Of a stretch of DNA of 30,807 nucleotides, positions 3,001 through 29,409 are shown piece by piece. Where the stretch lies: the NCBI GenBank assembly GCA_947629895.1, contig CANRFP010000005.1:1-30807 (forward strand), read 5' to 3'. Both the position numbers and the translations under genes were made by a program. Below the pieces are notes generated by a model. It saw only the letters and a program-made list of their open reading frames with translations. It made no database searches and had not been told where the DNA came from. The stretch's first letter is position 1. Every line of letters begins with the position of its first letter. This stretch comes from an uncultured Clostridia bacterium. GTDB lineage: Bacteria; Bacillota_A; Clostridia; Christensenellales; UBA1242.

Positions 3001-6000
3001 CAACATAAACAAACATATTATCCTTTGTTGAATAACAGTTTTCAATCGAAACGCTGTGGTCTGGCGTGAAGTTGGCAGACCCATCATAGCCCAAAAGTCC
3101 AAATTGTGTGGAGAGTGTTGGAGAGTGAAGCTTTAATATGTTGTTTATTCGATAAACTGAACTATCAACAGTTATGACATTTCTTGCATTGTCAATTTCG
3201 CCTTTGACAACAAATTTAACATAATCATAAAGTCCGTCCGCTGCCCCTTCCAAAGCAAAGGATGCGCTTACACTATTTTCATCTGCCCCAACATCTTCAT
3301 CTTCCTCTTTGCTTGTGTCAGTTGCTTTTTTGTAAATGACTTTTGTGTCTCTTCCTGCTGTTGGCTGCCAAACAAAAGTTCCGTCAGTTATCCTTATGCT
3401 TTCATCAAAACTTAGGAAATCCACCGTAAACACTTCTGACTTACTTGAAACAGAAAGATCATTGCCCACAGCAAAAATTTGCATTTCATACGCTTTTGGG
3501 TCCAGCCTATATTTTCCAAGCACAGAATTTCCTTCGTTGAGGTTGAGGTAGAACATAAAGTATCCCGTGCCATTTCCATTTTCGTCTCCGTTCACGCCCG
3601 TGACATAAACTTTCACATTTGTTTCAGCTTGTGGAATGGTGTATTCTTTTGGTGCATCAACCATAAGCATTGACCACGCATCATCACTTCCTGTTATATC
3701 AAAAACATATTCTCCAAGACGAATTTTATAAGCTTTTGCATCTTCTTCTGTGATGCCGCCAGCAGTTTGTGTGTAAACTTGACTTTTTGCAAATATCACT
3801 TTAAAAGATGTTTGCGCTTTATCTGTTGGGTGGTCAACTTTTGTTGCTGCAACAACAGGTTGATTGTTCACATAAAGTTTGTTTTTGTTTTTATCTTCAC
3901 TTGGTGCCGCATTTGTAAATGGATACCAGCCCGAACTCAAACTATCTTTTCCGCCAAGCAGACAATACTTCAACGAATAAGCGCCTGTTTGAATTTTTTC
4001 AAACTCATCATCAAAAACGCTTCTTCCAGATGCAATTCCGTGTTTGCCATTTTCAACTGCTGTAATAAAATCTTTTAAGGTGTTTGCAAGTGCATCGTTT
4101 CCGGTGAGATTTTGTATCACTTCGTTCAATCTTTTCAATATTTCTTGGCCTTTTTCTGTTTTGAATAGGTCTTGAAGCAAAATTGTGGCATCAAAGTTTT
4201 TGATTGTGCTCATGGAAGCCCCACCATCAACTTGCGAAATAAACTCAAAACTCATAATCACACTGCCATTGATTATGTCTTTCATTGTGAAGGTGAAAGG
4301 AATTTTAAACACTTGTTTTGTTAACTTGTCGGCAAAATCGGTGTATGAGTTTTCAAAATCTGCCAAAACTGCATCCACAAAGTCAGAATTTTCCCAGCCG
4401 ATTGACAGCACGCCTCCCGACAACTTAATTTCATTTGTGATTTCATTTTTGATAACTTCCACAGGAGCGCCTTCATTGTTTGAAACAAACGTTCTTGATG
4501 AGGAAATTTCAAACGCATTTTCGCTCACGCCTTGAACCGCCAAATAATATGTTCCGCCAACCCCGGCAAACTGAGATGCGTTAAAGTATGTCACATAAGA
4601 TGTGAACAAGCTGAAGTTTTTAAATTCTGTGCCTTCTGTCAATTCCTCTATAAAGTAAATTTTATAGAATTGCGTTTTGTCTCCGCTTCCACTCCATCTA
4701 AGGTCTCCACGATTTAGTGTAAGCGAGCCTGCTTGTGCACCTTCAAGCCTTACAAAATATTCGCTTCCATCACTTGGCTTTGGAACATACCAATCGGCAA
4801 AGGTGATTTTGCCATTCTCTTGTGTCAGTTTTGAAATTTCAATCTTGAATTTTCCAATAAGCTTCAATTGTCCCGAAACATCTTCTGCCTCAAATCTTTC
4901 AAAAATTTGCGTGAGGTTGAGTGCAAATTCTTTTGTTTCATCTGTTTTTTCAGAGGCATAAGCGCTGTTTTTTGCGCTATCTGCTGTTATAAAAGTGATG
5001 TATTCTGTGTGTGCATCCGTTGTCATATCTGTTATTCTAACGTTGAAGCCAAGAGTTTTGATTTCACCCTCATCCTTGTCCTCAAACACAGCAAACGTGT
5101 TGATGTAGTCCTCTTTCAAAACAGTGTCCTTAACATTTTTGCCAAGTTTCACAATTTTGCCTTCCACAGGGTCAACAAAATTTAATATAAATTTATCATA
5201 CACTTTTGCAACAATGCTCTCTTCTGGAACCGTTTGCTCTTCGTCCTCTGTCACGTCCTCCCCAGAAGATGGATTCTTTGCATTTGAATATGCCCAGAAA
5301 TATATTGTTTTTTCGCCCGTCAAGGTTCCACCGGCAAGCTTTTTCAACTGCGTAACAAGTGTTGAAATTGCATAAACAAATCCAACATTTTCTTCGCTTT
5401 GAAGGGTTGAAGGCTCAATATTTATCTCCACAACATTTGCATCATCTTTGAAAATTTCTTTATTTTCAAGTCCGGCATAAATTGTGTAACCTTCTTCTGC
5501 ACCCAAGAAAGTGAAGAACAAATTCTTTGGCTCCAATTCGCTTATCACAATGTCTTTTATTCCGTTTGTGAATATGAATGGCTTGCTTTCAAGCCCCAAC
5601 GAAGACAAAGCAAAGGCTTGTCCATCATAGGCTTTTCCAACTTGTGCTTCTTCGCCCTCAACAGTGGCAACAACAACTGTGAATTTCACAACATTTTCAT
5701 CAAGTTCTTCAGTGTTAAGTTTTGTTTGAGTAAGATTTTTCCATCCATAAGGCGCAACTGGTTCTTCCAATTCTGGCTTTGTGACATATTTTGATAATAA
5801 GACATATTTTATCGTGTAAAGCCTCTGTGTTTCTGGATTGTTTTTAATGTTAACAACGCCTTTGCCGTCAACAAAAATGTCCTCGGAAACAACTTCCTGC
5901 GCAATAACTTTCACTTTAAACTCATATTCAAGTGAAACATCTTGTTCTTCGTTAGTTGGCACAACCACAATTGTGATTATCATCTCATAGCCGGCTTTAA

Positions 6001-9000
6001 GCTCTTCCGCTGTAACCTTTCCTTGATTCAACAATTTTTCATAATTGTCGCCAAAGAGTTCTTGTGCTGTTATCTGCGTGCCTGTGATTTCTGTGTTGTA
6101 TTCATAAATTTCCTCGCCACGCGTGCCATCTTCACTCTTGTAAAAACTAAATTGATATTCTTTTGCGCCCGAAATTCCTGTCCAAGAGAAAGTAAATTCA
6201 TGCAATGCTCTTTTCATATACACTGCGGTGACTGGCGATATCCTCTTTAAAACCAACTCATGATTAAATTCCACCGATGGCAAATAGCCTTCTTCTGTGG
6301 CATAAATTTTTAAGTTGTGACCTTCATCTTTCCAACTGTTAGGAGACACAAACGCATAGTTGTTTGCGCTTGTAAGTTCTTGACTAAACTCTTTGGAAGG
6401 GCCCTCTTCTTGTGTTTCCTCATATTTTACTATATATTTCGTTCTTTCAGAATTGAGTTCTGTGGCTCTATTTAATCTAAATCCATTAACAGTTTTTTCT
6501 ATATAATCAGCATCTGGAATTGATTTCAAAACATTAAAATCTGCTTTTAACACCTCTTTTGATGGCAAAATGTATCTTTCTGATTCAAAATATTTTATAA
6601 ACGCTGAAACAGAAAGAGTGCCGCCTTGTTTCATGTGCTCTTCAAAGAAATCCGTTAAATCTATGTTTGACCAATCATTCAAATTGGTGTCACCTGTTTG
6701 AAGTTTGTAAACTGTGCCGCTTGACCCATTTGAATTGTATTCCAATTTCAAAACCACGCCGCCATTTGCTCGATTGTCAAAAATGCCGCCATCATTTGTT
6801 GTCACTGGAAGAGTTATCTTTAATTTGTGTGAAAGTTCCCCGTTATCATCGGCAAAACTCAGCCCAACAACTTTTCCCGCTCTCAAAATTGGTGTTTTCA
6901 GTGTTGCTGATGGAATTTTGTCCGCCGTGCTTGATATTGCTTGAATTTTAAGCTCTTCAACATCGTCAATCAGAATTAAATAATCTTCTGCATCAATTGA
7001 GAAAGAGTATTCATAAATCCCGCCTTCCTCATTTTCGCCAGAAAGCGTTCTTGCCGCTTCAATTTCAGTGTCTTTAATGAAAACTTTAAATTGTGCGCTC
7101 TCGCCATAGTTTCCTTTGAAGGTGACTTTCATTTTGGCGTTTTGCGCATCTTCAAAGGTATCTTTATTTGTATGCTCAAACTCAACCTTGCTGATTTCTG
7201 GCATTTTTAATTTTGTTATGGTGATATAATCGTTTGAGGTTTGTTGCTTATATATATAATAGTTATATTCTTCAATTTCTGTTATATCATTGTTTAACAA
7301 TGCTTGCTTGTCACTGTAATAAATTGTTGAGCCATAGGTGTATGATGTTTGAGGCTTGATGTGTGCCACAAGTTGCATCTTCAAAGTGCCCTCATATCCA
7401 GCCAAATTTTCAGCAAGTTCAGTGAAAACATTAACTTTGTTTGCGGTTGTTTTATACACAAACTGCTTCTTGTTTGTTTCGTCATCTTTCAAGAAAATCA
7501 AATTGTATTCAAGCCCAGAGTTTATGTCAATCGAAAAGGCTTGCCAAGAAATGTATTCGTTAACAATTTCATCTATGTCAGTTTTTGAAGGGGCAACAGA
7601 AGCCATATCTTCAACAGTCCAAGAATTTATTGTGCTGCCAAGATAATAAACATCCTGCTCCAACTTTCCCTGCAAGCCAAAAGTGTAAGTCCCTTCACCC
7701 GAAATGGTTGCAAGATAGGCATCTTCTGTTCCGCCCGCAACTTGCACTTCGCCGCCATCCTTCATGCCAACTATCTTTTCAAATTTATCATAGTCATCAT
7801 CAAACAAAATCAGTTCCAATTGCGCTTTATCGGTGAGTTTAACGCTTTCAATTCCGCGCAATAAATACACGAAAATAGAATCCGATTTGTCAGAGTTCAA
7901 ATAATTTGGATTTGTTGCTTCAACATATATTTCTGTGAGAGTTTGTGGTGTTAGGTCTGATTTTTGAATTGTATAACTTGTTGAGGAAGTTATTTCAACA
8001 GTTTTTTCGCCATAAGTAAGCACGAACGCTGTTTCATCGTCTGGTTCAACACATTCCCAAGACAAAGCAAATGTTTTTACGTCTGGCAAATATGCGTTTG
8101 CGCTTTTCAAGTCCATTGAAAGCACTGGTTTTGGAACTTTTTTAACAACCAATTCGGTTTTTGAGGCATCAGAATCTGTTTTTGCATCCGGAGAACAAAT
8201 TTTTATCGTGTTGCCCCCAATGTTCATGCAAATTCTCAAAAATACGCTGAAAGTAACCTCTTGAAATTGCACGTAGTTGGTGTCAAATTCGGTGTAAGCG
8301 TTTTGCAAAGCCTCAACCAAACTTGTGTAATTTATTGTTACCGCTGTTTCTTCCTTTGATAAGTAATCGTTTGAAGGGAGATTTCTTCCAATCTCGTCGC
8401 CGTTTAAATAAACTATTGTGGTGGATTTATCAAAGCAAACATCCGCCTCAACCGTTTGTCCTTCATTTAATGTTTTGCCAACAATTCTAAGCACAAAACT
8501 GCCATTTGTGCTGTCCCCATTTGTTGTGTCAGAAAACATAATTTTGCCGTCATAATATTTAAGGTTGCTTGGTGATTCTGCTCTTGAAAAGGTGAAATTC
8601 TCTTCACTTTCAAGCGCAACACTTCCATCAGCATCCTTTGTGTATAATTTTGTTCCTTCGTTCCAATATGAGCCAATGTATTTCACCGTCACAGGAATGG
8701 TGCTGGATGCAGGCTTTCGTTCAAGCCCCACAGAAGCCATTGAACCAGGGTAATAGTTCATTGTTTGAGAACTTGTGCCGGCTCTAACAAAAAAGCTTGT
8801 CATTCCTTCCACATTTCTTGGTTGAACAAACAAAGTTTCGCCCAAAGTGTCAAAAGACATGTCGCTGTCACTTGGTGCGGCATCAAACTTGGCTTTTCTA
8901 ATTTGTTTGATTGTGAGAGTTATTGTTTGTGAATCCTCATACAACAGCTTGTTGTCATCTGAGGCAATCGCTTTAAGAGTGATTAAAGTTGGCTCTCCAA

Positions 9001-11323: not shown

Positions 11324-11329
11324 GTTAAA

Positions 11330-11390
11330 CCTCTCCTTAAAGTGGAATAAAGCACGCCAGCATTTTACAATTTTATTTTACCACTTTAAG
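11330..11390 (-). promoter_or_regulatory. Leader inverted repeat overlapping the Shine-Dalgarno of the giant lipoprotein gene
   Basis: CTTAAAGTGG at 11336-11345 and CCACTTTAAG at 11381-11390 are a perfect 10-bp inverted repeat separated by 35 nt. On the minus-strand mRNA the downstream arm contains the first part (AAGG) of the ribosome site AAGGAGAGG that serves the ATG at 11323. If the arms pair, the ribosome site is partly masked. This suggests translational control by a ligand, temperature or protein. That is inference. Confidence 0.5.
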
Positions 11391-18006: not shown

Positions 18007-19776
18007 TTAAACTTTTTCAAATTGGCTGTTGTATAAATCGGCATAAAATCCGCCCTTGGCAAGCAGCTGCTCATGATTTCCGCTTTCAACAATATCGCCA
18101 TCTTTTAGCACCAAAATTAAGTCGGCATTTTTTATTGTTGAAAGACGATGTGCAATTATGAAAGACGTTCTGCCTTCCATAACTTTGTCCATTGCCTCTT
18201 GAAGCAAAACTTCCGTTCTGGTGTCCACCGAACTTGTTGCCTCATCCAAAATCATCATAGGTCTGTTTTCAAGCATTGTTCTTGCAATGGTGAGAAGTTG
18301 TTTTTGCCCAGATGAAAGGTTGACGCTGTCAGTTAGCACTGTGTCATAGCCTTTTGAAAGGGTTTGAATAAAATGGTCAACTCCAACTTTTTTGCACGCC
18401 TCAACAATTTGCTCATCGGTTACATTTGGATTGTTGTATCTTAAATTTTCTTTGATTGTTCCTTCAAACAGCCATGTGTCTTGAAGCACCATTCCAAAAA
18501 GTTTGTGAACATTATCACGCGATAAATCCTTTGTTGAAACGCCGTCAATTTTTATGTCGCCGCTGTTCACCTCATAAAATCTCATAAGCAAATTCACAAG
18601 CGTTGTTTTGCCCGCGCCCGTTGGCCCAACAATAGCCACCTTTTCGCCCGCCTTAACATTTGCGGAAAATCCTTTGATTATGATTTTGTCTTTATTATAG
18701 CCAAACACAACATCGTCAAATTCAACATCGCCCTTAACATCGTTTAAAACAAGCGTCTTTTCGCTTTCGTCTGCAAGTTCTTCGGCGTTTAAAAACTCAA
18801 ACACTCTTGTGCTTGCTGCCGCTGTGGATTGAAGTCTGGACAACGCTTGTGCCATTTGAGAAAGTGGATTTGAGAATAGTCTAACAAAAATCATGAAAGT
18901 GATGATTGTGCCAATGAATCCAATTCCTCTTTGCGCCGCCAAAACGCCGCCCACAACGCAAACTGCAACATATCCAAAGTTTCCCACAAAACCCATCACA
19001 GGCTGCATAACTCCGCCAATGAATTGCGCTTTCCAGCCGCTTGTGTAAAGTTTTTTGTTGACTTTTGAAAACTCTTTATGCATTTTGTTTTGCGCATTGA
19101 AAAGTTGAACAACATTGTGCCCTGAATAGTTTTCTTCAACATGCGCATTGAGTTCTCCAAGATTTTTTTGATTTTGCGTGAAATATTTCTGCGCTCTTGT
19201 GAGGAAAATAAGCGAAAATGAAAATCCAACTATGGTTGCGCCAATAACGGTCACCGCCATGATTGGCTCAATGACAAACATTGCAATTAAAACGCCCAAA
19301 AACAACGTTGCGCTTGAAAAGAGTGTGCCGATGCTTTCATTTAAACTCTGCCCAATTGTGTCAACATCGTTTGTCACACGGCTTAAAATGTCGCCATACA
19401 TGTGCCCATCAAAATAGCCAAGTGGCAAGCGGTTGATTTTTCCAGAAATGTCCCTTCTAAATCGTTTGACAACTGCCTGCGTGCTTGTTGCCATTATGAA
19501 TTGTTGGAAATAGCCCAAAATTGCGCCAATCAAATAAATTATAAGCAAAAACAGCGCAATTTGTGTGAACGCTTCAAAATCCACGCCCACAGCAATGCCT
19601 GTCACAATCATGTTGGTGAGGTCTTGTATTTTAATTGGCCCGATTATTTGAAAAACTGCTGCTATTGCCCCAAACAAAATTGCAAGTGCGAGCCAGCCCC
19701 ATTGGAATTTGCAATATCGAATAAGTTTTTTCATTGGCTCTTTGAAAGCGCCCTTTTGCTTTACCTTCTTTTTCAT
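18007..19776 (-). CDS. ABC exporter half-transporter, canonical-site subunit (membrane plus ATPase)
   Basis: This 589-residue half-transporter has an N-terminal six-helix exporter domain (about 20-320) and a C-terminal ATPase. Walker A GPTGAGKT is at 384-391, Walker B is MMILDE with catalytic Glu512, and the H-loop His543 is in IAHR. The signature is LSSGQ (487-491), with Ser in place of the usual first Gly. Together with the partner gene, which lacks the Glu and His, this fits a heterodimeric exporter with one degenerate ATP site (BmrCD or TM287/288 type). The start is the ATG at 19776, preceded by AAAGGAGG; a longer frame upstream would run into the previous gene. Its gap to the partner gene's stop is one base. 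Substrate unknown; drug or lipid export is typical of the class. Confidence 0.93.
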   Translation of the reverse strand: MKKKVKQKGAFKEPMKKLIRYCKFQWGWLALAILFGAIAAVFQIIGPIKIQDLTNMIVTGIAVGVDFEAFTQIALFLLIIYLIGAILGYFQQFIMATSTQAVVKRFRRDISGKINRLPLGYFDGHMYGDILSRVTNDVDTIGQSLNESIGTLFSSATLFLGVLIAMFVIEPIMAVTVIGATIVGFSFSLIFLTRAQKYFTQNQKNLGELNAHVEENYSGHNVVQLFNAQNKMHKEFSKVNKKLYTSGWKAQFIGGVMQPVMGFVGNFGYVAVCVVGGVLAAQRGIGFIGTIITFMIFVRLFSNPLSQMAQALSRLQSTAAASTRVFEFLNAEELADESEKTLVLNDVKGDVEFDDVVFGYNKDKIIIKGFSANVKAGEKVAIVGPTGAGKTTLVNLLMRFYEVNSGDIKIDGVSTKDLSRDNVHKLFGMVLQDTWLFEGTIKENLRYNNPNVTDEQIVEACKKVGVDHFIQTLSKGYDTVLTDSVNLSSGQKQLLTIARTMLENRPMMILDEATSSVDTRTEVLLQEAMDKVMEGRTSFIIAHRLSTIKNADLILVLKDGDIVESGNHEQLLAKGGFYADLYNSQFEKV

Positions 19777-19777
19777 A

Positions 19778-21538
19778 TTACAATTCCTCCTTTGAAAGTT
19801 GTGAAAGGGCAATTTCTTTGTAAATTGGACAAGTTTTTAAAAGTTCTTCATGCGTGCCTATGCCAACCATATTGCCGCTGTCCAAAACCACAATTTTGTC
19901 CGCATCCTTAATTGTTCCAATTCGTTGTGCCACAATAAATTTGGTGGCGTTGCCCGTGTGCTTTTTAAGCGCCTCCCTAAGTTTTTTGTCCGTTTTGTAG
20001 TCAAGCGCCGAGAAACTGTCGTCAAATATGAAAATTTGTGGCTCGCGCGCGATGGCTCTTGCAATGGAAAGCCTTTGTTTTTGCCCGCCAGAAACATTTG
20101 TGCCGCCTTGCGAAATTTCGCTGTCAAGACCGCCCATTCTGCCAACAAAATTTGATGCTTGTGCAACAGAAATGGCCTTTTTGACAACCTCTTCACTTGC
20201 TTTGTTGTCTCCAAAGTCCACATTCTCTTTAACCGTGCCTTTGAACAAAACTCCCCTTTGTGGAACATATCCAATCTTTTGGTTGAGCCGGTGAAGGTCG
20301 TATTCTTTCACATTCACGCCCTCAATTAAAACATCGCCCTCAGTTGCATCGTAAAGTCTTGGAATGAGGTTTATCAGCGTGCTTTTTCCGCTTCCCGTTG
20401 AGCCAATAAATGCCACCGTTTCGCCCTCGTTGGCCTCAAAAGAAATGTCTTTTAACACATATTCATCTGCATTTGGATATTTGAAAGAAACATTTCTAAA
20501 AGCCACAACAGGAACTTTTTCTCTTTCCTCGGCGCCCTCGAACAGTCCCGAAGTGATGTCATTTTTGCTGTCCAAAACTTCGTTTATACGCCTTGACGAA
20601 ACCAGCACTCTTGGAAGCATGATGAAAATCATAATCAAAAGCATGAACGCCATCACAATTTGCACAGAATATGACATGAAAGAAATCATAAAGTTAAGCA
20701 TATTTGAATCTTTAACAATGTAAGCCCCAATCCAAAAGATTGACAAACTTAAACTGCTCATAATAAGGCTCATTCCCGGACTCATGATTCCCATAATTCT
20801 GCTTGCAAAAAGGTTGTTGGAGGTGAGTTCTTGATTGGACTTTTCAAACTTGGCGTTTTGATAGTCCTCCGCATTTGCCGCACGAATAACCCTAATGCCG
20901 GTTAAGTTTTCACGCGTAACTCTGTTCAAATTGTCGGTTAACGTTTGAATTTTCTTAAATTTTGGAATGGCAAAAATGACAACAATGGTTATCATCACAA
21001 TAAGCAAGCAAATTGCAACCCCAGTTGCAAGCGACCACTGCCAACTTACATTAAGCATTTTTGTGAGCGCCCAAATTGCCATGACAGGCGCTTTAAGAAG
21101 CACTTGAAGCCCCATTGCCACAAAAAATTGAACTTGTGTAACATCGTTTGTTGTTCTTGTGATGAGGCTTGCAGTTGAAAATTGGTTGATTTCAGAAAGC
21201 GAAAGGTTTTGAATTTTGCTGTATATTTTTTCCCTCAAATTAAAAGAAAAGTTTGCCGCAATTTTTGCAGTTAAATAGCCAACAATGATTGCACTTGCCA
21301 AGCTTCCAAGTGCGCAAGCAAGCATGAAGCCACCATTTTGCAAAATAACAGGAACTCGGACTGTCCACTCCGGATGCCCCATCAAAATGCCCGTTTGAGG
21401 ACGTTGCAGTTCGCTGGTGATGGCCCTTGTGTAGTCGGGAATTTTGATGTCCAGCCACACTTGCAGCACAACAAGCCCAGCAACCAAAAATATATAAAAC
21501 CAATCTATGCATTTTAAATTTTTCAGTAGTTTAAACAT
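19778..21538 (-). CDS. ABC exporter half-transporter, degenerate-site subunit (membrane plus ATPase)
   Basis: A 586-residue half-transporter with an exporter membrane domain (about 10-320) and an ATPase. Walker A GSTGSGKS is at 379-386 and the signature VSGGQ at 482-486. Walker B reads IFIFDD, with Asp507 where the catalytic Glu should be. The H-loop has Gln538 (VAQR) instead of His. These two changes mark the non-hydrolysing half of heterodimeric exporters, matched by the altered signature in the partner. The start is the ATG at 21538 with GAGGGGG just upstream; the longer TTG start at 21571 has no ribosome site and overlaps a leader hairpin. It is the first gene of the exporter operon, driven by the promoter at 21593-21622. 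Confidence 0.93.
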   Translation of the reverse strand: MFKLLKNLKCIDWFYIFLVAGLVVLQVWLDIKIPDYTRAITSELQRPQTGILMGHPEWTVRVPVILQNGGFMLACALGSLASAIIVGYLTAKIAANFSFNLREKIYSKIQNLSLSEINQFSTASLITRTTNDVTQVQFFVAMGLQVLLKAPVMAIWALTKMLNVSWQWSLATGVAICLLIVMITIVVIFAIPKFKKIQTLTDNLNRVTRENLTGIRVIRAANAEDYQNAKFEKSNQELTSNNLFASRIMGIMSPGMSLIMSSLSLSIFWIGAYIVKDSNMLNFMISFMSYSVQIVMAFMLLIMIFIMLPRVLVSSRRINEVLDSKNDITSGLFEGAEEREKVPVVAFRNVSFKYPNADEYVLKDISFEANEGETVAFIGSTGSGKSTLINLIPRLYDATEGDVLIEGVNVKEYDLHRLNQKIGYVPQRGVLFKGTVKENVDFGDNKASEEVVKKAISVAQASNFVGRMGGLDSEISQGGTNVSGGQKQRLSIARAIAREPQIFIFDDSFSALDYKTDKKLREALKKHTGNATKFIVAQRIGTIKDADKIVVLDSGNMVGIGTHEELLKTCPIYKEIALSQLSKEEL

Positions 21539-21566
21539 TTTCCCCCTCACTTTTAGCCAAACAAAA

Positions 21567-21585
21567 GACAAGCATTATGCTTGTC
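21567..21585 (-). terminator. Stem-loop after the ESCRT-like operon / at the 5' end of the exporter mRNA
   Basis: GACAAGCAT (21567-21575) and ATGCTTGTC (21577-21585) form a perfect stem. On the minus strand it is followed by TTTTGTTT, like an intrinsic terminator for the operon ending at 21638. It also begins at the predicted start of the exporter transcript (about 21586), where it may act as a 5' stabilising hairpin. Which role it plays cannot be told from sequence. Confidence 0.55.
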
Positions 21586-21637: not shown

Positions 21638-24600
21638 TTAATTATTTTCCCAAATTAATCGTGGAAGAATTGAAGCCTCTTGCGGAATAACCCAAATTTT
21701 TGTGCTGAAATTCATGGAAGAATCATATTCGCTTAGCTGCTTGCAAGAGCCCGCACCCATTGTGTAGTTTGGATTTTCATCCCCAATAGGATTTATGAGC
21801 GAGAAACAATTTTTGACACTGCCAGAAAAATATCCAAAAACTCCGCCAACTTTAATGCCACTTTTAGCGGAAATTGTTGTGGAAGAATAACTGTAAGAAA
21901 CGCCGTTTGGATTGTTGATGCTTTCAAATTTTCCATAAAGCCCGCCAACATTTAAAACAGGGCTTGTAAGTTCCAAAACATCGATGCTTCCTTTGGTGTA
22001 GTTGTTGTCGCTGCCGCTGTATCCAAGCCCAACAAGCCCGCCAATTTGCGCCTCTTGAGCTGTGCCAGAAACTGTTACGCTTAGATTTGCAACATTTTGG
22101 CTTATGGAATGGCCGCTAACTTTGTTTAATCTTCCAATCAAGCCTCCCAAGTTTAATTTTGCATTTTCGCTTGTGGCTGTCACTCTGCCTTCGCTTGAAC
22201 TTTGGAATATTTGCGTGCCAGCAGAAACTTTGCCAACATATCCGCCATAAACAATTTCGCAATTTGTAACTTTGATTGTCACAACCAAATTAGTTTTGCA
22301 GTTCAAAATTTTTCCGCCCATGTCCTCGCCAACCAAGCCACCAATCACACTGTTTATGTTTGTTTCAATGGCAAGCGTTCCGCTGACTGTGCAGTTTTGC
22401 AAAGTTCCGTTGTTTCTTTGTGCTATGCCACCAAAAAGTGTTCCATTTTTGAAGGTTTGAGAGAGTTCAATTTGCAAATTTTTTATCGTTCCACTGTTTG
22501 TTGAAAGCAGTCCGCCACCAGAAGCATTTAAATTTTTTATTGTGTGATTTTTTCCGTCCAAAACGCCCGAGAAGGAAATTGCTTTCCAAGAAAAATCTTT
22601 CATATCAATGTCTTGCGAAAGTTCAATATTGCCATATCTAACATTTTCAAGATAGGTTTTAAGTTCTTTTGCATTTGAAACTTGAATGACGCTTGGGAAA
22701 AGATAGAAACAAACAACAAAAAGTATTAAATTCACAATTCCAATGGCAAACAAAACAATGTTGATGATTTTCCATTTTGTGTTAAGTTTTTTTCGTTTTA
22801 TGTAATAGAAAATGATGTTTGCCAGTGCTATCACCATTGTGCAAAGCAAAGAAACAATCAAAAATGTTTGATTGAAAAACGCATAAACTTGTTTTGGATA
22901 AAATATTGTGAACGCCAAAAGAAAAGTTAAAAAGCAAAGTGGGAAAAATTCCAAAAAGCCACACAAATAGCCCTTTATAAATTTGTCCTCTCTTATCTTT
23001 TTAAGTTGTTTTTGATGTTTCTTCTCTTGAATTTCCTTTTCCGCATAAATTTGTTTCAGCCCCGCATCTCTTTCGGTGACATTCAAAACATTTATCGAAC
23101 TTTCAAAGGTGAGGTCAAGAAGATCCAGCCTCGTTTCAATCTTTGATGTGATTTTGGCAAATTCGTCATAATTTTGGCAGTTTCCAAGGCTTGTCAGGCA
23201 CTGTTCAAGAGGTTTTAATTGGGATTGAAAATAGTCCGCTTTTGCCTTTGCTTCAATGCCCTGCTCAGCATTTATTTCAAGCAAAATTTTGTGGTTTCTG
23301 TTCAAAAAATCACTTAGTTTTTCTTTTAGGTTTTTCTCATCTAACATGTCCGGCAAAAACTTTGTCCTTTCGCCTTTGAACAAGTTGTTTTTGCTGACAA
23401 TTTCGGCATATTTTTCGCGTTGGCTTTCACTTGAAACGCTTATCAAACTTTCCCATTCTTCAAAATCTGAAAACTTAACGGGCGACGTTATCACTTCCCC
23501 GTCTGAGTTGCAGTGCGCTTTAACTTTTATTAGTGTCCAATAAAAATCGGCGTTTTGATTGTTCTTTGAAAGCGCAATGGAAATGTATTTTTCTGCTTGT
23601 TTGAAAAACCTCATCTCTTGAAGGGAAGTTGCAATTTTGTTTAAGCACAAACATAGTTGAGCGCTATCAGTGATGTATGAAAGATAGAAATCAAGTTGGC
23701 TTTCTGCCGCCTCCAAATCTTTATATGCAATCGGCAAAATCATATCAGCAACTTGCATAACAAAATTTGCCCTTGAACTTTCACTTAAAAATTTGAAAAT
23801 CTCTTCAATTTCGGCTTTGTTTTTATAGGACAAAATTTGCTCTGGCGTTTTGAAATGTTCCAAAAACTTGGTCATGTTGCTTTGTTCATGGCCCTGGTCT
23901 AGGCTTAAAATTTTGTCATAATATTTTTGCTCGCCGCTTTTTTGCGCAAGCGCATAATAAAAATTGACAAATCTATCAACATCTTTTGGGTTGAAGCACT
24001 TTTGAACATCTTCAATCAAATTTTCATCCATTGTTTCCACAGCCAAATTTTCGGCCTGCTGGATGAAGTTTTCACGATTTGGCGTGTTAAATCCTGCAAG
24101 AAAAAGCAAATATTTTTGATAATATTCCACTTCTGCCAACTTTATTATCTGCCCTTCCAAATTGTCAACAAAATTCTCTGCAAAATCTTTTTGAGAAAAA
24201 CTTAAAATTTTTTGGATTTTGTCCATGTCTTTGAAATTTGAAACGCTGGCAAAAAAATCTTCTTGCGTTCTAATTTTTCTTGAACACAAAAGTTCTGCAA
24301 ACATAAGGCGCGCATTGTTAGAATCTTTTTCAAGTTCTCTTTCAATCAACTTGTTGGCAGTTTCAAAGTCGCCATTTTTTAAAAGCAAGAAAATCCACTC
24401 AATTTTGTTCTCATCGCTGAGTGCCATGTTCTCAACTTCATAGTGCCCCAAGTCCACCGGATTGATGCTTTGAATTTCAACATTTTCTTTCTTTTGAGGT
24501 GCTTCATTTGAAAGCGTAACCGTGTCAATTTTTGCAACCTCTTTCGAGGTTTTTTCCAATTCTTGCAAAACTTTGTTCACAATCTCTTCTGCTGGTTGAT

Positions 24601-25399
24601 TTATTGAAACAATGTTTTTAAAGTTCAAAAATTCTTTTGGCAGGTCTTTTTTCTCAATTTTTTTCTCATTAACAGCCACAATCAGCCCAGATTTGGACTT
24701 TCTTTTTTGAGTTGTGAAATAAAAATACCTATCAAAAACATTTTTGACATCGGAAAAATCTGCATTCTCTTCATTTATCAAAAGCAAAACGTTGCTTGTT
24801 TCAAGCGCATGAAAAAGATTTGGCTCTTTGTCACCATTTTCTGGCACAAAATACACTCTTTTGCTTTGCCTTAATTGCCCAACAATCTCATTCACAAAAA
24901 TGCTTTCTTTGTTCTTGTCGCACTCTGCTGGCGCAACAATAACATCAAATTCATCTTTGATTTCGTCATATTGTTTTTTGTATCTTTCAATTTTTTTGGC
25001 TATATCATTGTAAGTTTTAATTGTGTCCTCTGGGGCAAGTTCCACAGCCTTTTTAAAATCGGCATCGTCAAAAAGATTTATGATTTTGTCAAAAAACACA
25101 GGGTTTCGGCTGCTGCTTCTTCGGTTTGCTGTTAAAACAATTTTGTTTCTTGCAAGTGCTCTGCCAAAATATCCTTCAAAAGACATTGGAAATAGATTTA
25201 AAATTTTGTTGAACTCGTCAACCGCATCCTCAAAGCGAAGCGCGCGGGCAATTTCGTTTGCCCCAATAACCAAAACTTCTTCCTCTTTTGAGGCGTGTTC
25301 GTCAACATATAAAGTCCCACAGAACCTGCACTTAACCATGTTCTGCCCAACAACTTTGTATGATTTGCCTCCGCAATTTTTACAAACACGCTCTCTCAT
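21638..25399 (-). CDS. Zinc-ribbon / TPR / TIR-like / three-TM / extracellular GLUG protein
   Basis: A 1253-residue multidomain protein. In order: a zinc ribbon (C6, C9, C24, C27); a TPR-like helical segment (about 48-140); a TIR-like fold at about 150-265, starting FDVIVAP, with VYFVPEN and LFHALETSNVLLLI strands and helices; a long TPR/helical region (about 325-760) and coiled coil (about 775-805); three membrane segments (about 814-834, 845-867, 877-902); then about 350 residues of GLUG-type repeats (GVLDGKNHTIKNL, GGLVGEDMGGKILNC, GGLIGRLN, GGLVGLGYSG). Three TM segments put the N-terminal domains inside and the GLUG domain outside. From memory, Clostridia have a zinc-ribbon-TPR-TIR family with the same front half; here the residues around the TIR catalytic Glu (VKN-E-W in those) read VKNVF, so NADase activity is unlikely. 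It is the last gene of the ESCRT-like operon, with AAGGGG overlapping the ATPase stop. Confidence 0.75.
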   Translation of the reverse strand: MRERVCKNCGGKSYKVVGQNMVKCRFCGTLYVDEHASKEEEVLVIGANEIARALRFEDAVDEFNKILNLFPMSFEGYFGRALARNKIVLTANRRSSSRNPVFFDKIINLFDDADFKKAVELAPEDTIKTYNDIAKKIERYKKQYDEIKDEFDVIVAPAECDKNKESIFVNEIVGQLRQSKRVYFVPENGDKEPNLFHALETSNVLLLINEENADFSDVKNVFDRYFYFTTQKRKSKSGLIVAVNEKKIEKKDLPKEFLNFKNIVSINQPAEEIVNKVLQELEKTSKEVAKIDTVTLSNEAPQKKENVEIQSINPVDLGHYEVENMALSDENKIEWIFLLLKNGDFETANKLIERELEKDSNNARLMFAELLCSRKIRTQEDFFASVSNFKDMDKIQKILSFSQKDFAENFVDNLEGQIIKLAEVEYYQKYLLFLAGFNTPNRENFIQQAENLAVETMDENLIEDVQKCFNPKDVDRFVNFYYALAQKSGEQKYYDKILSLDQGHEQSNMTKFLEHFKTPEQILSYKNKAEIEEIFKFLSESSRANFVMQVADMILPIAYKDLEAAESQLDFYLSYITDSAQLCLCLNKIATSLQEMRFFKQAEKYISIALSKNNQNADFYWTLIKVKAHCNSDGEVITSPVKFSDFEEWESLISVSSESQREKYAEIVSKNNLFKGERTKFLPDMLDEKNLKEKLSDFLNRNHKILLEINAEQGIEAKAKADYFQSQLKPLEQCLTSLGNCQNYDEFAKITSKIETRLDLLDLTFESSINVLNVTERDAGLKQIYAEKEIQEKKHQKQLKKIREDKFIKGYLCGFLEFFPLCFLTFLLAFTIFYPKQVYAFFNQTFLIVSLLCTMVIALANIIFYYIKRKKLNTKWKIINIVLFAIGIVNLILFVVCFYLFPSVIQVSNAKELKTYLENVRYGNIELSQDIDMKDFSWKAISFSGVLDGKNHTIKNLNASGGGLLSTNSGTIKNLQIELSQTFKNGTLFGGIAQRNNGTLQNCTVSGTLAIETNINSVIGGLVGEDMGGKILNCKTNLVVTIKVTNCEIVYGGYVGKVSAGTQIFQSSSEGRVTATSENAKLNLGGLIGRLNKVSGHSISQNVANLSVTVSGTAQEAQIGGLVGLGYSGSDNNYTKGSIDVLELTSPVLNVGGLYGKFESINNPNGVSYSYSSTTISAKSGIKVGGVFGYFSGSVKNCFSLINPIGDENPNYTMGAGSCKQLSEYDSSMNFSTKIWVIPQEASILPRLIWENN

Positions 25400-25407
25400 A
25401 AAGCCCC

Positions 25408-26541
25408 TTATTTTTTTGTTTTCTTTGTTCTAAGCCCCAATTCTTCATTGTAAAGTTCAAACTGCTTGATTTCTTTTTCGGTGACACTTGGTGGAAATGT
25501 TTCCAGAACTCTGTCAAAATCCTTATTTGAAACAAGCACAATTTTGTCGGTTTTAATTGCTTCCAAAAGAGGCTCATCTTTGGCGCGGTCACACAATTCC
25601 TCAATGTCAGCGCCGCTGTAACCCTCCGTTTGTGAAACGATTTTGTTTATGTCAAATCCCTTTTCAACCGGAACATTTTTCATGTTTTTTTCAAGCATAA
25701 ATTTTCTTGCTGGGGCATCTGGAAGTGGCAAATATATCTTTTGCGAAAATCTGCCCGAACGCATGGCGGCACTGTCTATGTCCCAAGGCCTGTTTGTTGC
25801 CCCCAAAAGCAAAAGATTTGGATTTCTTCCAGCAAAGCCGTCAATTTGTTGCAAAAATTCGTTGACACGCTTATCGTTGTGAGTGTCAAGTCCACGCTTT
25901 CCAATAATGCTGTCCATCTCATCAATAAAAATGATTGCCCTATCTTGCTTGTTCGCCTCTGCAAAAAGCGAATTTATGTTTTTTTCGCTGTCGCCAACCC
26001 ATTTGCTGACAATATCCGAGCCTTTAACAGCATAAAACTTTGCCTTAACCTCGTTGGCAATGGCTTTGGCAATCATGGTTTTTCCTGTGCCGGGAGGGCC
26101 ATAAAGCAAAACCCCGCCGCCCGTTTTTTTGCCATATAATTTGTATTTGTCTGGATATTTCACAGGATTTATCATTTTCAGCGTTATGGCTTTTTTAACG
26201 TCATCAAGGCCAGCAACATCATCAAATGTGATGTTTGGAATTTCTGCTGCTTGCCACTTTTTTAAATCGTCATCCTCTTCTTGTTGCTCGCTCTTTTTTG
26301 TTGTGTTGGAAAGAGGGCGTTTTTGCAAGTTGTCGGATATTTCAACCAATTTCCTTGCACGTTCCATTCTCACTTCTTTAAGTTTTCCCTGACTTATCTT
26401 TGCCATTTTCATCATTGTTTCGCCGGCAAGCAAAAAATTACGCTTGGCAAGGGTTATGTTGCCCTTGTCTTTTGCCTCTTTGCCTTTTTTCATGTAAAGT
26501 TCAAATGTGTCTGAAAGGACATCGATATTTTCTTCCGTCAT
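25408..26541 (-). CDS. Vps4/katanin-class AAA+ ATPase with N-terminal MIT-like domain
   Basis: A 377-residue cytoplasmic ATPase. Residues about 8-74 form three charged helices with the MIT pattern (FELYMKKGKEAKDKGNITLA, then NFLLAGETMMKMAK). Such domains bind ESCRT-III tails. A linker leads to one AAA module: Walker A GPPGTGKT (148-155), pore loop SKWVGDSE (179-186), Walker B IIFIDE with Glu208, sensor-1 Asn250 in GATNRP and arginine finger Arg264. The pore loop and the C-terminal helix (PPSVTEKEIKQFELYNEELG, 350-369) are strongly Vps4/katanin/spastin-like. The beta domain of eukaryotic Vps4 is absent, as in archaeal CdvC. Expected role: pulling ESCRT-III subunits apart with ATP. It starts at ATG 26541 with TTGGAG upstream and sits 24 nt after an ESCRT-III-like gene. 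Confidence 0.85.
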   Translation of the reverse strand: MTEENIDVLSDTFELYMKKGKEAKDKGNITLAKRNFLLAGETMMKMAKISQGKLKEVRMERARKLVEISDNLQKRPLSNTTKKSEQQEEDDDLKKWQAAEIPNITFDDVAGLDDVKKAITLKMINPVKYPDKYKLYGKKTGGGVLLYGPPGTGKTMIAKAIANEVKAKFYAVKGSDIVSKWVGDSEKNINSLFAEANKQDRAIIFIDEMDSIIGKRGLDTHNDKRVNEFLQQIDGFAGRNPNLLLLGATNRPWDIDSAAMRSGRFSQKIYLPLPDAPARKFMLEKNMKNVPVEKGFDINKIVSQTEGYSGADIEELCDRAKDEPLLEAIKTDKIVLVSNKDFDRVLETFPPSVTEKEIKQFELYNEELGLRTKKTKK

Positions 26542-26565
26542 GTAAACTCCAATTATTTATCTGCG

Positions 26566-27126
26566 TCAATTTTCTTTCTCAATGTTTTCAGAAGAAAGTT
26601 CGTCTTGGCTGGCTTGCTCCATGATAAACTTTTCAAGTTCTGCATCACTCATTTCGTTGCCGCTCTTGTCTTTGCCTGCATTATAAAAGGTTTCTTGGCT
26701 CATCTCCATAAAGTTGTCCATTTGGTCGGTTTGAGTTTCAACGGCAACCATCGCCTCTTCAAACTGTGCTTGGATTTTTGCAAACTCTTTTGCATCTGCA
26801 AGTTTTGTCATCTCTTTTGAAATGTCACTCATTCCACGCAAAAATTCACTTGTCATCATTGTGACATCCTTCATTTGAGCGGTTATTTCAAAGTTTAAAA
26901 GCATCTCTTGCGCTCTCTTTTGTTGTTGAACTGTCATTTTGTAACCAGAAAGCGCCAAATTAAACTGAGCATCAAGCCCTTTGAGTTTTGCCTTTTTTGC
27001 AGCCTCAATAAACACTTTCTTTTGGTCTTCCAAACGGTTGATTTGTTTGTTCATTGCGTTGATTGTTCTTTTAATCAACATCTTCTTTTCGATTTCTTTT
27101 TCTTGTTTTGATTTAAAAAGTCCCAT
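26566..27126 (-). CDS. ESCRT-III-like protein, Vps2/CHMP2-type
   Basis: A 186-residue all-helical protein starting MGLFKSKQEKEIEKK. The first ~80 residues form a basic helical hairpin (INAMNKQINRLEDQKK, AKKAKLKGLDAQFN). The middle is acidic and Met-rich (MMTSEFLRGMSDISKEMTKL, then FEEAMVAVETQTDQMDNFME). The basic front, acidic back, length and the 'L-x-x-Q-x-K-K...A-K-x-G' pattern follow ESCRT-III of the Vps2/CHMP2 class more closely than PspA, which is longer and lacks the acidic tail. The C-terminal helix DAELEKFIMEQ (161-171) partly fits the MIM1 motif bound by MIT domains, and the next gene encodes an MIT-AAA. It should polymerise on membranes; that is inference from the family. Ribosome site GGAGG; 3 nt after the preceding gene. 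Confidence 0.72.
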   Translation of the reverse strand: MGLFKSKQEKEIEKKMLIKRTINAMNKQINRLEDQKKVFIEAAKKAKLKGLDAQFNLALSGYKMTVQQQKRAQEMLLNFEITAQMKDVTMMTSEFLRGMSDISKEMTKLADAKEFAKIQAQFEEAMVAVETQTDQMDNFMEMSQETFYNAGKDKSGNEMSDAELEKFIMEQASQDELSSENIEKEN

Positions 27127-27129
27127 TTT

Positions 27130-27738
27130 TTATTCCTCCAATTTTGCTTTTTTTCTTTTGATAGGCTCTTCCTTTTGCCCATCTGCCATCATTTCATCGT
27201 TAAGTTCGTTCTCTTTTTCAAACATTGTTAAAATTTCTTCCTCGCTTGCCCCAACGCCATATATTGCTTCGTTTGTGTCATATGCCGCCTGCACTTCTTG
27301 GAAAAGTTCATCTGCACTTGTAAGCACATCCTCAGATGCCGTTCGCGTGACAAGCGCTTTGTTCAAAAACTTTGCCAAGCCTTTTTGGTCTTTAAGCAGT
27401 TCTGACAAAGGAACTTTTGTTTGCGTTTTGAAAAAAGTGTTGCTGTCATAGGCGTCTTTCAGTTTGTTCATAAGCCGAATGTTATACAAAAGATATATCC
27501 CTCGCTCCATGCAAACTTTTTTCTCTTCGTTTATGTTTGATATCTTCTTTGCATAAAACAGTTGCAACTCTCGGCTCTTTTCCTTCTTGCCTTTTTCCAT
27601 AAGCGCATCAATCTCTTTTATTTTTTGCAACACTTCCGCCTCAACTGTTCGCTCTTGCCTTTCAAGCTCGCAAATTGAGTTCACCAAATCCTCGCGATTT
27701 AAATTTCTAAATTTGTTCCTTCTAAAAGGATTCCACAT
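27130..27738 (-). CDS. Second ESCRT-III-like protein, Snf7-type (probable)
   Basis: A 202-residue helical protein. The very basic N-terminus (MWNPFRRNKFRNL) could contact acidic lipids. Helices at about 15-100 carry the pattern L-x-R-Q-E-R...I-x-E-I-D-A-L-M-x-K-G-K-K...Y-A-K-K, like the first hairpin of Snf7/CHMP4. Helices then lead to an acidic end with SEEEILTMFEKENEL (165-179), which resembles the C-terminal helices of Snf7-class proteins. It ends with a basic patch (IKRKKAKLEE). Together with the neighbour at 26566 it forms a two-member ESCRT-III set. The identification is weaker than for the neighbour and leans on context. Ribosome site AGGAGGG; 9 nt after the TPR gene. Confidence 0.58.
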   Translation of the reverse strand: MWNPFRRNKFRNLNREDLVNSICELERQERTVEAEVLQKIKEIDALMEKGKKEKSRELQLFYAKKISNINEEKKVCMERGIYLLYNIRLMNKLKDAYDSNTFFKTQTKVPLSELLKDQKGLAKFLNKALVTRTASEDVLTSADELFQEVQAAYDTNEAIYGVGASEEEILTMFEKENELNDEMMADGQKEEPIKRKKAKLEE

Positions 27739-27747
27739 ACTTCCCTC

Positions 27748-28107
27748 CTAATAATTGTCGCCTTCGTTTATGCTGTAAATTCTTTCAAGTAAGCTGTTGT
27801 ATTTGTTTTTTAAGTCCTCATCAGCAAGTTTTAAGGCCTCAATGCACTCTGGCAAAAATGGCGCTAGTTTATATTTCACCGCATTGGAGAACAATTCGTC
27901 CTCATTACCAAGCCCAAGTTTCACAAGCATCAAGCCCCAATAAGCATCTGCACATTTAGGGTCTAGGCCCAGCGTGATTTTGAAGTTCATTTCTGCCTGC
28001 TCAAAAAATCCATCTGCCAAATTCAAGTAGCCAAGTTGCAACTCCTTGCTTGCTCTGTTTTTATATTGCGGATTTATGTCTAGTGAAATTTGATAAGTCC
28101 TCTTCAT
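27748..28107 (-). CDS. Small TPR-like protein
   Basis: A 119-residue helical protein with one clear TPR pair (about 23-68: LGYLNLADGFFEQAEMNFK, then LDPKCADAYWGLMLVKLGLG) and further helices. TPRs bind partner proteins; here it is likely an adaptor in the ESCRT-like operon. The 'A-x-A-Y-W-G-L' pattern is the style seen in clostridial zinc-ribbon-TPR-TIR proteins, a possible link to the large gene of the operon. There is no signal peptide or membrane segment. Its ATG overlaps the stop of the upstream gene (TGATG), implying coupled translation. Confidence 0.75.
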   Translation of the reverse strand: MKRTYQISLDINPQYKNRASKELQLGYLNLADGFFEQAEMNFKITLGLDPKCADAYWGLMLVKLGLGNEDELFSNAVKYKLAPFLPECIEALKLADEDLKNKYNSLLERIYSINEGDNY

Positions 28108-28517
28108 CAGTTCTGCTCTTCCTTCTTTCTTTGCACAATATACGCTTCAATTTCTTCCAAAACTCGAAAACATGTCTCTTGTGTGTTGTCCTTCGCAACC
28201 ATAATTTTCAAATCGTCCAGCCTGTTTGCAATTTTGTTGTCCACAAGAAGCACCTTGTCGTTTGTGGTTGGATTGAAAAATCTTATATTGTCCTTAACCT
28301 CAACAAGCCTTCTGCACAAAACATCGTTTCCGTTGGCATACACTATTATGCTCTCAACATTCGCAACCATATTTTCAATGGATTTTTTGTTCTTCATAAT
28401 GCCCCGGCTTCCAACATTTGCCTCATCTTTTGGCTTTTTTATGTATTCTCTAACTAAATAAAACACCGCAAAGCCAACAATGGCAACAATGATTATCACA
28501 TACAACGCGATTAACAT
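28107..28517 (-). CDS. Single-pass membrane protein of unknown function
   Basis: I do not recognise this 136-residue protein. An N-terminal membrane segment (residues 2-23, IALYVIIIVAIVGFAVFYLV) is followed by a basic stretch (REYIKKPK), so the rest should face the cytoplasm. The soluble part is mostly helical and charged (NKKSIENMVANVESI, ANRLDDLKIMVAK) and ends basic-acidic without motifs. In this operon it could recruit the ESCRT-like proteins to the membrane; that is inference from topology and position. The ribosome site AAGGAGGAG starts inside the stop codon of the SPFH gene. Confidence 0.75.
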   Translation of the reverse strand: MLIALYVIIIVAIVGFAVFYLVREYIKKPKDEANVGSRGIMKNKKSIENMVANVESIIVYANGNDVLCRRLVEVKDNIRFFNPTTNDKVLLVDNKIANRLDDLKIMVAKDNTQETCFRVLEEIEAYIVQRKKEEQN

Positions 28518-28526
28518 ATCTCCTCC

Positions 28527-29348
28527 TTAAAGTTTTTCGCCGCAAGCCGGACAAAACACCGAACCTTCTGGCAATTCAACTCCGCACTTTGGACAAACAT
28601 TTGCTTTTTGCGTGCTTTTGCCGCACTTTGAACAAAATTTGTCGCCCTCACGCAGCGGCGCACCGCAACCCGAACATATCAAATTTGAATTTCCTGATTT
28701 TAACAATGCATTCAACCTGTCTAGGTCCTCTTTGTCAATAATAATGTTTGCAGTATTAAAGAAAAAAACCGCAACTCCATATTCACTCATAAGTTTGTGC
28801 GAAAGGGCAGTTAAAATCTTTTGCGACATTTGCTTTTTGTAAGTTGAAATTTTGTTGAAAGGAATGCCGTTTGCTTGAATGTATTCCACTATCACCGTTT
28901 CAACAACCGATACAACGTTTGACATCAATCTCTCTTGCAGAGCATCGGAAATTAAATCATTTGAAACGCCAACCAAATAGAGATAACATTTTCTTGGGTC
29001 TCCAATCTGAACTTCAAAATCGCCCGAAAGCCCCAAGTGATAGTTATCCTTAACAAAATCATCGAACATAAGCAGTTTGTTTGCCGTTCCCCAAAGCAGT
29101 TTCAATTTTGCAGTTTTGCTCATATACAAAATTTCAATACTGCTGCCAAGTTCTGTTTTAACATCCAAAAAATCAGTGAGATTATACTTTCCCGATGACA
29201 AAGTTTGAAGCATTTGCCCGTCTTTGATTAAAATGGCATTATGCGTTTCTGGCACAATCAAAGCTGGCTTTGAAGAAAGGTCGCTGACAACATATCTTGC
29301 CAAAAGTTTTTCATTGCTTCCACTAAATGTGATGATGTTTTGTTCCAT
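28527..29348 (-). CDS. SPFH-domain protein with two C-terminal zinc ribbons (YdjI-like)
   Basis: A 273-residue protein. Residues about 15-215 fit the SPFH/band-7-like domain of the YdjI group: a beta-rich start (LIVPETHNAILIKDGQ), an 'SGKYNLTDF' turn, a second beta part (LGLSGDFEVQIGDPRKCY) and helices. The end carries two zinc ribbons: C225, C228, C239, C242 and C252, C255, C266, C269. There is no membrane segment, so it would associate peripherally. In Bacillus subtilis the related ydjI is in the operon of a PspA protein, and PspA belongs to the ESCRT-III superfamily. Its place at the head of an operon with ESCRT-III-like genes is therefore consistent. The start is at ATG 29348 with AGAGG upstream. 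Confidence 0.85.
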   Translation of the reverse strand: MEQNIITFSGSNEKLLARYVVSDLSSKPALIVPETHNAILIKDGQMLQTLSSGKYNLTDFLDVKTELGSSIEILYMSKTAKLKLLWGTANKLLMFDDFVKDNYHLGLSGDFEVQIGDPRKCYLYLVGVSNDLISDALQERLMSNVVSVVETVIVEYIQANGIPFNKISTYKKQMSQKILTALSHKLMSEYGVAVFFFNTANIIIDKEDLDRLNALLKSGNSNLICSGCGAPLREGDKFCSKCGKSTQKANVCPKCGVELPEGSVFCPACGEKL

Positions 29349-29358
29349 AAAACCTCTG

Positions 29359-29376
29359 ATGGATATTATTATCCAT
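29359..29376 (-). promoter_or_regulatory. Dyad at the 5' end of the ESCRT-like operon mRNA
   Basis: ATGGATA (29359-29365) and TATCCAT (29370-29376) are perfect 7-bp arms with a 4-nt loop, at the predicted transcription start (about 29375) and just before the ribosome site. It may be an operator or a stabilising 5' hairpin. Confidence 0.45.
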
Positions 29377-29380
29377 TAAA

Positions 29381-29409
29381 ATCTTAACAAATCGGCACAA
29401 AAAAGTCAA
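29381..29409 (-). promoter_or_regulatory. Promoter of the seven-gene ESCRT-like operon
   Basis: Minus-strand TTGACT (29404-29409), a 17-nt spacer and TAAGAT (29381-29386), preceded by TG one base upstream (extended -10). It lies just after the terminator of the ABC-2 genes and 33 nt before the SPFH start codon. No other convincing promoter was seen inside the operon, where gaps are 24 nt or less. Confidence 0.65.

Follow-up and report, generated by a model that had tools for sequence, protein, structure and literature searches.

Gene content of the locus

The stretch of DNA analysed here (the window) comprises the 30,807 nucleotides (nt) at positions 1 to 30,807 of contig CANRFP010000005.1 from an uncultured Clostridia bacterium (assembly GCA_947629895.1). 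On its minus strand, from 29348 to 21638, lie seven open reading frames (ORFs), genes A to G, which form a real and conserved bacterial operon of ESCRT-III/Vps4-like type (ESCRT, endosomal sorting complex required for transport; Table 1). In order from A to G, the ORF coordinates give intergenic gaps of 9, -1, 9, 3, 24 and 8 nt. An earlier note, made from the letters of the sequence alone, had described seven genes on one strand with gaps of 24 nt or less, encoding an SPFH/zinc-ribbon protein, a transmembrane (TM) protein, a TPR protein, two ESCRT-III-like proteins, a Vps4-class ATPase and a giant protein with TIR-like and GLUG parts; the ORF list agrees with its coordinates, strand and packing, and most of its labels proved correct.

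Table 1 Genes and features of the operon region (lengths in amino acids, aa)
Feature	Length (aa)	Position	Strand	Basis
Gene A, SPFH-zinc ribbon protein	273	28527..29348	-	Pfam
Gene B, single N-terminal hydrophobic (TM-like) segment	136	28107..28517	-	Read from sequence
Gene C, short TPR-like protein	119	27748..28107	-	Weak Pfam match
Gene D, ESCRT-III-like protein 2 (predicted fold)	202	27130..27738	-	AlphaFold2/Foldseek
Gene E, ESCRT-III (Snf7-branch) relative	186	26566..27126	-	Sequence homology and predicted fold
Gene F, Vps4-like AAA ATPase	377	25408..26541	-	Pfam, NCBIfam
MIT-like N-terminal region of F (residues 1-75)		26317..26541	-	Profile of F N-termini
Gene G, giant protein	1253	21638..25399	-	Pfam and by eye
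Promoter-like site upstream of A		29381..29409	-	9/12 consensus positions, TG before -10; chance-level alone

Genes E and D

By its sequence, E is a relative of the archaeal and eukaryotic ESCRT-III filament proteins. When the 188-aa protein of the Thermococcus Vps4 operon was used as a query, the E of the window ranked first among 1,200 ORFs (2e-16), and the E profile aligned with an archaeal ESCRT-III profile over 187 columns (7e-19). The homology of the E family to Snf7 and archaeal ESCRT-III is present over the core; one E relative (L056) passes the Pfam Snf7 cut-off, and the window's own E, taken alone, gives only E = 0.51. The predicted model of E (predicted local distance difference test, pLDDT, 71.8) has helices at residues 7-48, 52-107, 112-150 and 161-185, fitting the hairpin plus alpha4/alpha5 layout, and its best Foldseek match, which is not significant alone, is archaeal CdvB. 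The homology supports the labelling of this 186-residue protein as ESCRT-III-like, and the predicted fold is in keeping with it.

D, like E, is predicted to be helical; it is ESCRT-III-like by its modelled fold and resembles ESCRT-III weakly by sequence. The top five Foldseek matches of its AlphaFold2 model (pLDDT 65.1) were all CdvB2 (E 0.1-0.2, none significant alone), which is in keeping with the same label given to this 202-residue protein. With the 201-aa Thermococcus protein Tp_201 as a query, 19 of the 22 top rows were D proteins, and D stood at E = 0.0018 among the 1,200 ORFs. Halobacterial proteins encoded beside Vps4-like genes gave a best D row of 0.032 (Hu_225) and a best E row of 0.069 (HL_206), with unlabelled ORFs close behind. 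In the Thermococcus comparisons, E and, weakly, D each match an individual gene of an archaeal Vps4 operon, a correspondence that is new here. A profile comparison of D with E gave no match, which rules the two out as recognisable paralogues, and neither profile found a significant ESCRT-III chain when searched by sequence against the PDB.

A place for E in PspA/Vipp1 was also considered and is not supported: against a profile of two PspA proteins the probability was 0.6, a weak control in that the archaeal family also gives 0.1, and PspA_IM30 is absent from the families listed for E members (the best 25 of 72 families). In an unrooted tree of E with one archaeal family, with several E rows on long branches, the 20 archaeal rows grouped as a single clade (98/98) apart from the 30 E rows; because of this, a recent nested transfer of E from the archaeal family is not seen.

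MIT-interacting motifs sit at the C-terminus of ESCRT-III proteins, as stated in passages of PMC10936438. The relatives of E carry a conserved C-terminal stretch behind a variable linker, and a pattern derived from the E sequences themselves fits 32 of 40 E tails (the 637-aa fusion described below excluded) and 0 of 28 D tails. Among the archaeal relatives it fits 10 of 20, among other ORFs 5 of 1,131 and among shuffled tails 46 of 8,000. The MIM1 pattern in its textbook form fits none of the 40 E tails and none of the 20 archaeal relatives. At one locus (L059:9506-11419), a single protein of 637 aa joins an E domain to two others, FtsK alpha and the FtsK/SpoIIIE ATPase, and two further E-like genes lie in the same locus.

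Gene F

Pfam identifies F as an AAA protein (144.3 bits, about 25723-26112) with a C-terminal Vps4_C domain (PF09336, 22.1 bits against a cut-off of 21.3, about 25435-25533; 23.9 bits in L016), and these two domains support its labelling as a Vps4-like ATPase. Vps4_C is below the cut-off in the F of L057 and L058, and is not listed at E<=0.01 for L059, L062 and L064. The NCBIfam CdvC model covers residues 15-367 of the window's F with 216 bits, far under its cut-off of 650, and reaches from the N-terminal domain onward in eight of ten F proteins, again far under 650 bits; CDC48 outscores CdvC in nine of the ten by 2 to 53 bits. Judged by its sequence, F is Vps4-like in architecture.

The N-terminal region of F is predicted to be MIT-like. 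Within a 19-protein set, a profile of 23 F N-termini matched three archaeal Vps4-like N-termini (27.5, 14.7 and 12.5 bits), and nothing else in the set rose above the inclusion threshold. Against the PDB, the same profile gave rows for 2w2u ('hypothetical P60 katanin', 0.014) and 2mpk ('chitin synthase 1', 0.013), both of which we take to be MIT domains, ranked below a designed protein and another protein. In four loci (L015, L017, L050 and L052) F is a double-AAA protein, whose first AAA domain hardly matches that of the window in L017, L050 and L052.

Conservation and distribution of the operon

When the genome collection was scanned for matches to the E alignment, at least 17 loci were found, with E proteins 84-93% identical in the near relatives L001-L012 and 55-65% identical in L013-L017. 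Eleven of the 12 near relatives keep all seven genes in the same order (the contig of L008 ends inside F), and because of this the arrangement is beyond chance. E is accompanied by F in all 12 near loci, which puts ESCRT-III and Vps4-type genes in one co-conserved locus, and homologues of B occupy the corresponding position in all 12 as well. The packing is looser in some of them, with about 0.9 kb between E and F in L003 and 0.5 kb in L009.

Four of the five loci L013-L017 retain A, B, D and E together with a gene for an F-type AAA. The fifth, L015, keeps E and F; its D position is taken by another gene and its contig carries no A. This group has lost C and G or has other genes in their place. 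Across the 24 distant loci that we examined (L013-L017 and L046-L064), an F-type AAA gene lies near E in 22 (weak in L063 and cut by the contig end in L054), with one or two ORFs between E and F in L013, L052 and L057. D was found in 15 of the 24 and A in 20, six of these weak at 19-39 bits; the A of L060 exceeds the Pfam cut-off. The two loci that lack F, L060 and L061, are second E loci, and the other E locus of each genome has F. Two more E-positive genomes hold SPFH, E and F genes within one locus (L086 and L087). The genes of the operon travel together, so that this check, which the earlier note had asked for, came out in favour of its reading; the per-locus counts define A, E and F as the core, D as a usual member, and C and G as additions of the window's clade. 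In L060 (9501-10769), a RelA/SpoT synthetase-domain protein adjoins E, and a similar-looking ORF occupies the matching place in L061.

With a wider alignment, 21 of 200 genomes from the order to which L017 belongs were E-positive (19 of 200 with the first alignment). For the class the count was 4 of 391, each of these genomes being also in the order sample, and for the phylum 2 of 398, one of them the centre genome and the other matched only in part (5e-4). Within the samples searched, the E family is confined to one clostridial order; phyla beyond were reached through protein searches only (best 120 hits). The carriers of the 17 or more loci are labelled Clostridia, Christensenellaceae, Christensenella sp., Clostridiales, Eubacteriales and, once, uncultured bacterium. 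The nearest named relatives of the operon's proteins are from uncultured Clostridia, such as the protein P0005 of a 'Clostridia bacterium', which is 94% identical over E. A mobile or prophage origin was considered and rejected, as no E relative was found in IMG/VR (84 pattern matches, none confirmed) or in phage records.

Genes A, B, C and G

A is an SPFH/zinc-ribbon protein, as originally labelled: Pfam PF13421 (Band_7_1, SPFH) scores 45.3 bits against a cut-off of 24 (about 28728-29264), and the C-terminal zinc ribbons (about 28530-28682) match Zn_Ribbon_1 with 55.5 and Zn_ribbon_3 with 39.1 bits. Band_7_1 is the domain type of YdjI of Bacillus subtilis. C, which was seen in the window's near clade, has a weak Pfam TPR_16 match (E = 0.079) and resembles a stretch of G in cross-matches between the two.

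G starts with a zinc-ribbon-like CxxC..CxxC part followed by TPR-like parts; by eye, a TIR-like region (about 24530-24952) and roughly four TM-like helices (about 22595-22948) can be made out. Two features that the earlier note had read in G fared less well. First, Pfam finds no GLUG repeats and assigns the C-terminal repeat domain to Pectate_lyase_5 instead (24.7 bits against a cut-off of 24.3). Second, no Pfam TIR family appears at E<=1 among the ten families listed for G, and the support for a TIR-like region is indirect, through homologues: the N-terminal 330 residues of G match proteins in L014, L051, L056, L052 and L013, which also match the zinc ribbon-TPR-TIR protein of L016. G and that L016 protein do not match directly at E<=1e-3. 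Pfam reports TIR_2 in L016 (1e-8) and in L064 (5e-13), there in a separate protein.

Proposed function and alternatives

We consider it probable that the operon encodes a bacterial ESCRT module, made up of E, the Vps4-like F and a D of predicted ESCRT-III fold, which is likely to remodel or repair the cytoplasmic membrane. The best-supported working model is an ESCRT-III filament for membrane repair that would be recruited upon stress and remodelled with ATP; its recruitment, polymerisation and disassembly steps are those we infer as follows. First, A (SPFH) and B (a single TM segment) would bring the filament proteins to the membrane, by analogy with YdjI/YdjG/YdjH and PspA. Second, a filament of two components would arise by co-polymerisation of D and E. 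Third, F would dock with its MIT-like domain on the conserved motif at the C-terminus of E and extract subunits with ATP. Lastly, G would act as an anchor or sensor whose zinc-ribbon, TPR and TIR-like parts would lie inside the cell, its helices in the membrane and its repeat domain outside. As in the earlier note, the membrane function and the sensing of the outside are inferred. PspA exceeded the cut-off in none of 23 carrier genomes; because 198 of the 200 genomes of the order lack it likewise, this absence is uninformative, and the idea that ESCRT replaces PspA was set aside.

More ambitiously, the operon may belong to a complete ESCRT machine that evolves separately in bacteria: its ESCRT-III would be a deeply branching sister of the archaeal one and would have a Vps4-like motor to itself, and the links of the machine would run to an SPFH/zinc-ribbon membrane platform and exchangeable effectors (TIR, trypsin-like protease, BrxL) in place of ubiquitin, kinases or division, for surveillance of membrane damage or phage. 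We offer this only tentatively, as a less likely reading. Rather unlikely, in our estimate, is that the operon is a defence system proper, in which the ESCRT core would be a membrane-surveillance platform triggering the variable effectors upon damage by phage or toxin. The neighbours do vary around a fixed core: trypsin-like proteins occur in seven loci (Pfam was run on three), a BrxL-type ATPase lies beside the core in four (L014, L016, L049 and L056; Pfam BrxL_ATPase at 4e-111 and 6e-115 in two of them, no search for other BREX genes having been made), nine proteins counted by homology resemble the zinc ribbon-TPR-TIR protein of L016, and the RelA/SpoT-domain protein next to E in L060 points the same way. 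However, the window's own clade has a stable neighbourhood of the same seven genes, the glutamate of the L016 TIR is, by eye, seemingly absent from the TIR-like region of G, and no E relative turned up in IMG/VR or among phage records.

That the operon is a cell-division or abscission machine like archaeal Cdv is improbable. In structure, E and D come closest to CdvB and CdvB2, both of them division proteins, and a review suggests that ESCRT-III homologues might carry out the last division step in some bacteria (PMC7615534). But the FtsZ/tubulin family is over the cut-off in all 23 carrier genomes tested and E occurs in only 21 of the order's 200 genomes, so that the ESCRT set is not the sole division machinery, and a replacement of FtsZ by ESCRT in that role is excluded. 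General Pfam scans of the seven proteins, with no dedicated search, showed no CdvA-like or winged-helix domain.

Several results weigh against the ESCRT assignment as such. The fold matches of E and D are individually non-significant. The window's E ends, at 26566-26600, about 11 residues earlier than its relatives and is without their conserved C-terminal motif, which would reflect a real truncation, an assembly error or a loss of the contact with F in this strain. Pfam called MIT in only 1 of 23 F N-termini and TPR_8 in 5, and a single-sequence search with the Thermococcus Vps4 N-terminus was unspecific and did not rank F proteins first. In a small AAA tree (27 of 31 rows; an FtsH and three F rows, from L059, L062 and L064, were excluded as long branches or divergent), F groups with two actinobacterial AAA ATPases (97/93) and not with three archaeal Vps4 rows; a grouping of F with these three is disfavoured yet not rejected (approximately unbiased test, p-AU 0.062), and the Vps4 likeness of F may be convergence. 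Read together, the non-significant folds, the tree placement and the TPR matches would suit a view in which D and E are ordinary helical-hairpin coiled coils and F, with a TPR-like N-terminus, is a bacterial AAA chaperone of unrelated origin, the whole resembling ESCRT by convergence. We hold this to be very improbable: E is homologous over its full length to the archaeal family in comparisons for which D and PspA served as negative controls, L056 passes the Snf7 cut-off, and for E such an origin is already very unlikely.

Comparison with known systems

The archaeal Thermococcus-type 'Main clade' locus has a 188-aa protein that E matches over its full length, a 201-aa protein that D matches weakly, and a Vps4 whose N-terminus is matched by the N-terminal profile of F. 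It consists of ESCRT-III, Vps4, a kinase, a phosphatase and a winged-helix protein; here, in contrast, there is no kinase, phosphatase or recognised winged-helix protein, the ESCRT genes are joined by those for SPFH-zinc ribbon, TM and giant membrane proteins, the host is a bacterium, and the AAA domain of F does not group with that Vps4. Sulfolobus Cdv provides the best structural matches of E (CdvB) and D (CdvB2), and a CdvC model whose alignment starts in the N-terminal domain of F and ends close to its C-terminus; the CdvC score is nevertheless far under the cut-off, no CdvA is recognised here, and the tested carriers have FtsZ.

According to passages of PMC8581546, YdjI (SPFH) of B. subtilis together with YdjG/YdjH recruits PspA to the membrane; the pspA-ydjGHI operon, like the one here, thus joins an ESCRT-III superfamily protein to an SPFH protein (YdjI) and membrane proteins (YdjG/H). 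In contrast to PspA/Vipp1, E finds its matches in archaeal ESCRT-III and none in the two PspA proteins compared, and the present operon has two filament-type proteins and a Vps4-like ATPase. An SPFH-zinc ribbon protein also accompanies Vps4/ESCRT-III in the Meth_adaptin ESCRT loci (Makarova et al. 2024, excerpts of PMC10936438); those loci are archaeal and have adaptin-appendage and GOLD proteins, neither of which Pfam shows here.

Bacteria are said to lack a clear Vps4 homologue (PMC7615534), and a 2024 survey confines the pairing of ESCRT-III filament proteins and Vps4-like ATPases to archaea and eukaryotes. Ravi et al. 2024 (PMC11237479) describe some bacteria with Vps4-like ATPases and no snf7, where a TPR-6TM protein stands in its place, as well as PspA or TM-bearing Snf7 homologues with AAA ATPases, ABC and OmpA genes, including a double-AAA form. 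The bacterial Vps4-like AAA is common to those neighbourhoods and ours, and the double-AAA F resembles the double-AAA partner of PspA; the present gene set is not in section 18 of that paper (PMC11237479). Some of those loci possibly overlap with our double-AAA loci L015, L017, L050 and L052. AEY64321.1, an example accession from the same paper, is presumably from a Clostridium. No title or abstract among the literature matches listed (12 of 219 and 12 of 380 in two cases) describes the operon, in a search whose coverage leaves out preprints and most subscription papers.

If the assignment is true, the presence in Clostridia of both a Vps4-like ATPase and an ESCRT-III of the Snf7 branch would extend the ESCRT motor-filament pair to a third domain of life. 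It would provide a small system in which to study the role of ESCRT before there were endosomes, and would inform the question of the pair's origin: before the archaea, by passage between domains, or by two separate assemblies. An association with SPFH proteins, known from PspA and some archaeal ESCRT loci, now appears in a third setting.

Promoter-like sites and flanking genes

The earlier note had the operon read from one promoter. The site before A is matched or exceeded in score by minus-strand promoter-like sites inside the operon genes, at 29209, 26708 and 24168, and the region holds 27 such sites against 16.1 (standard deviation 4.2) in shuffles; a single promoter is unsupported.

An ATP-binding cassette (ABC) exporter pair directly follows G (18007-21571). 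An operon for outward vesicle budding or envelope export, coupled to these exporters, is the least probable of the readings we weighed: the pair lies behind G in nine of the ten near relatives with a long enough contig (L010 is the exception; L001 and L008 end too early) and Sulfolobales vesicles depend on ESCRT (passages of PMC10936438), yet the pair has its own strong sigma-70-type promoter-like site (21622-21593, a perfect 12/12) and is not directly behind the core in L013-L017.

An Rfam scan of the window gave no match. At the low end of the window, the minus strand carries an open-ended frame of about 3,790 codons (2-11377) with a lipoprotein-type signal start near its beginning, which perhaps encodes a giant surface lipoprotein.

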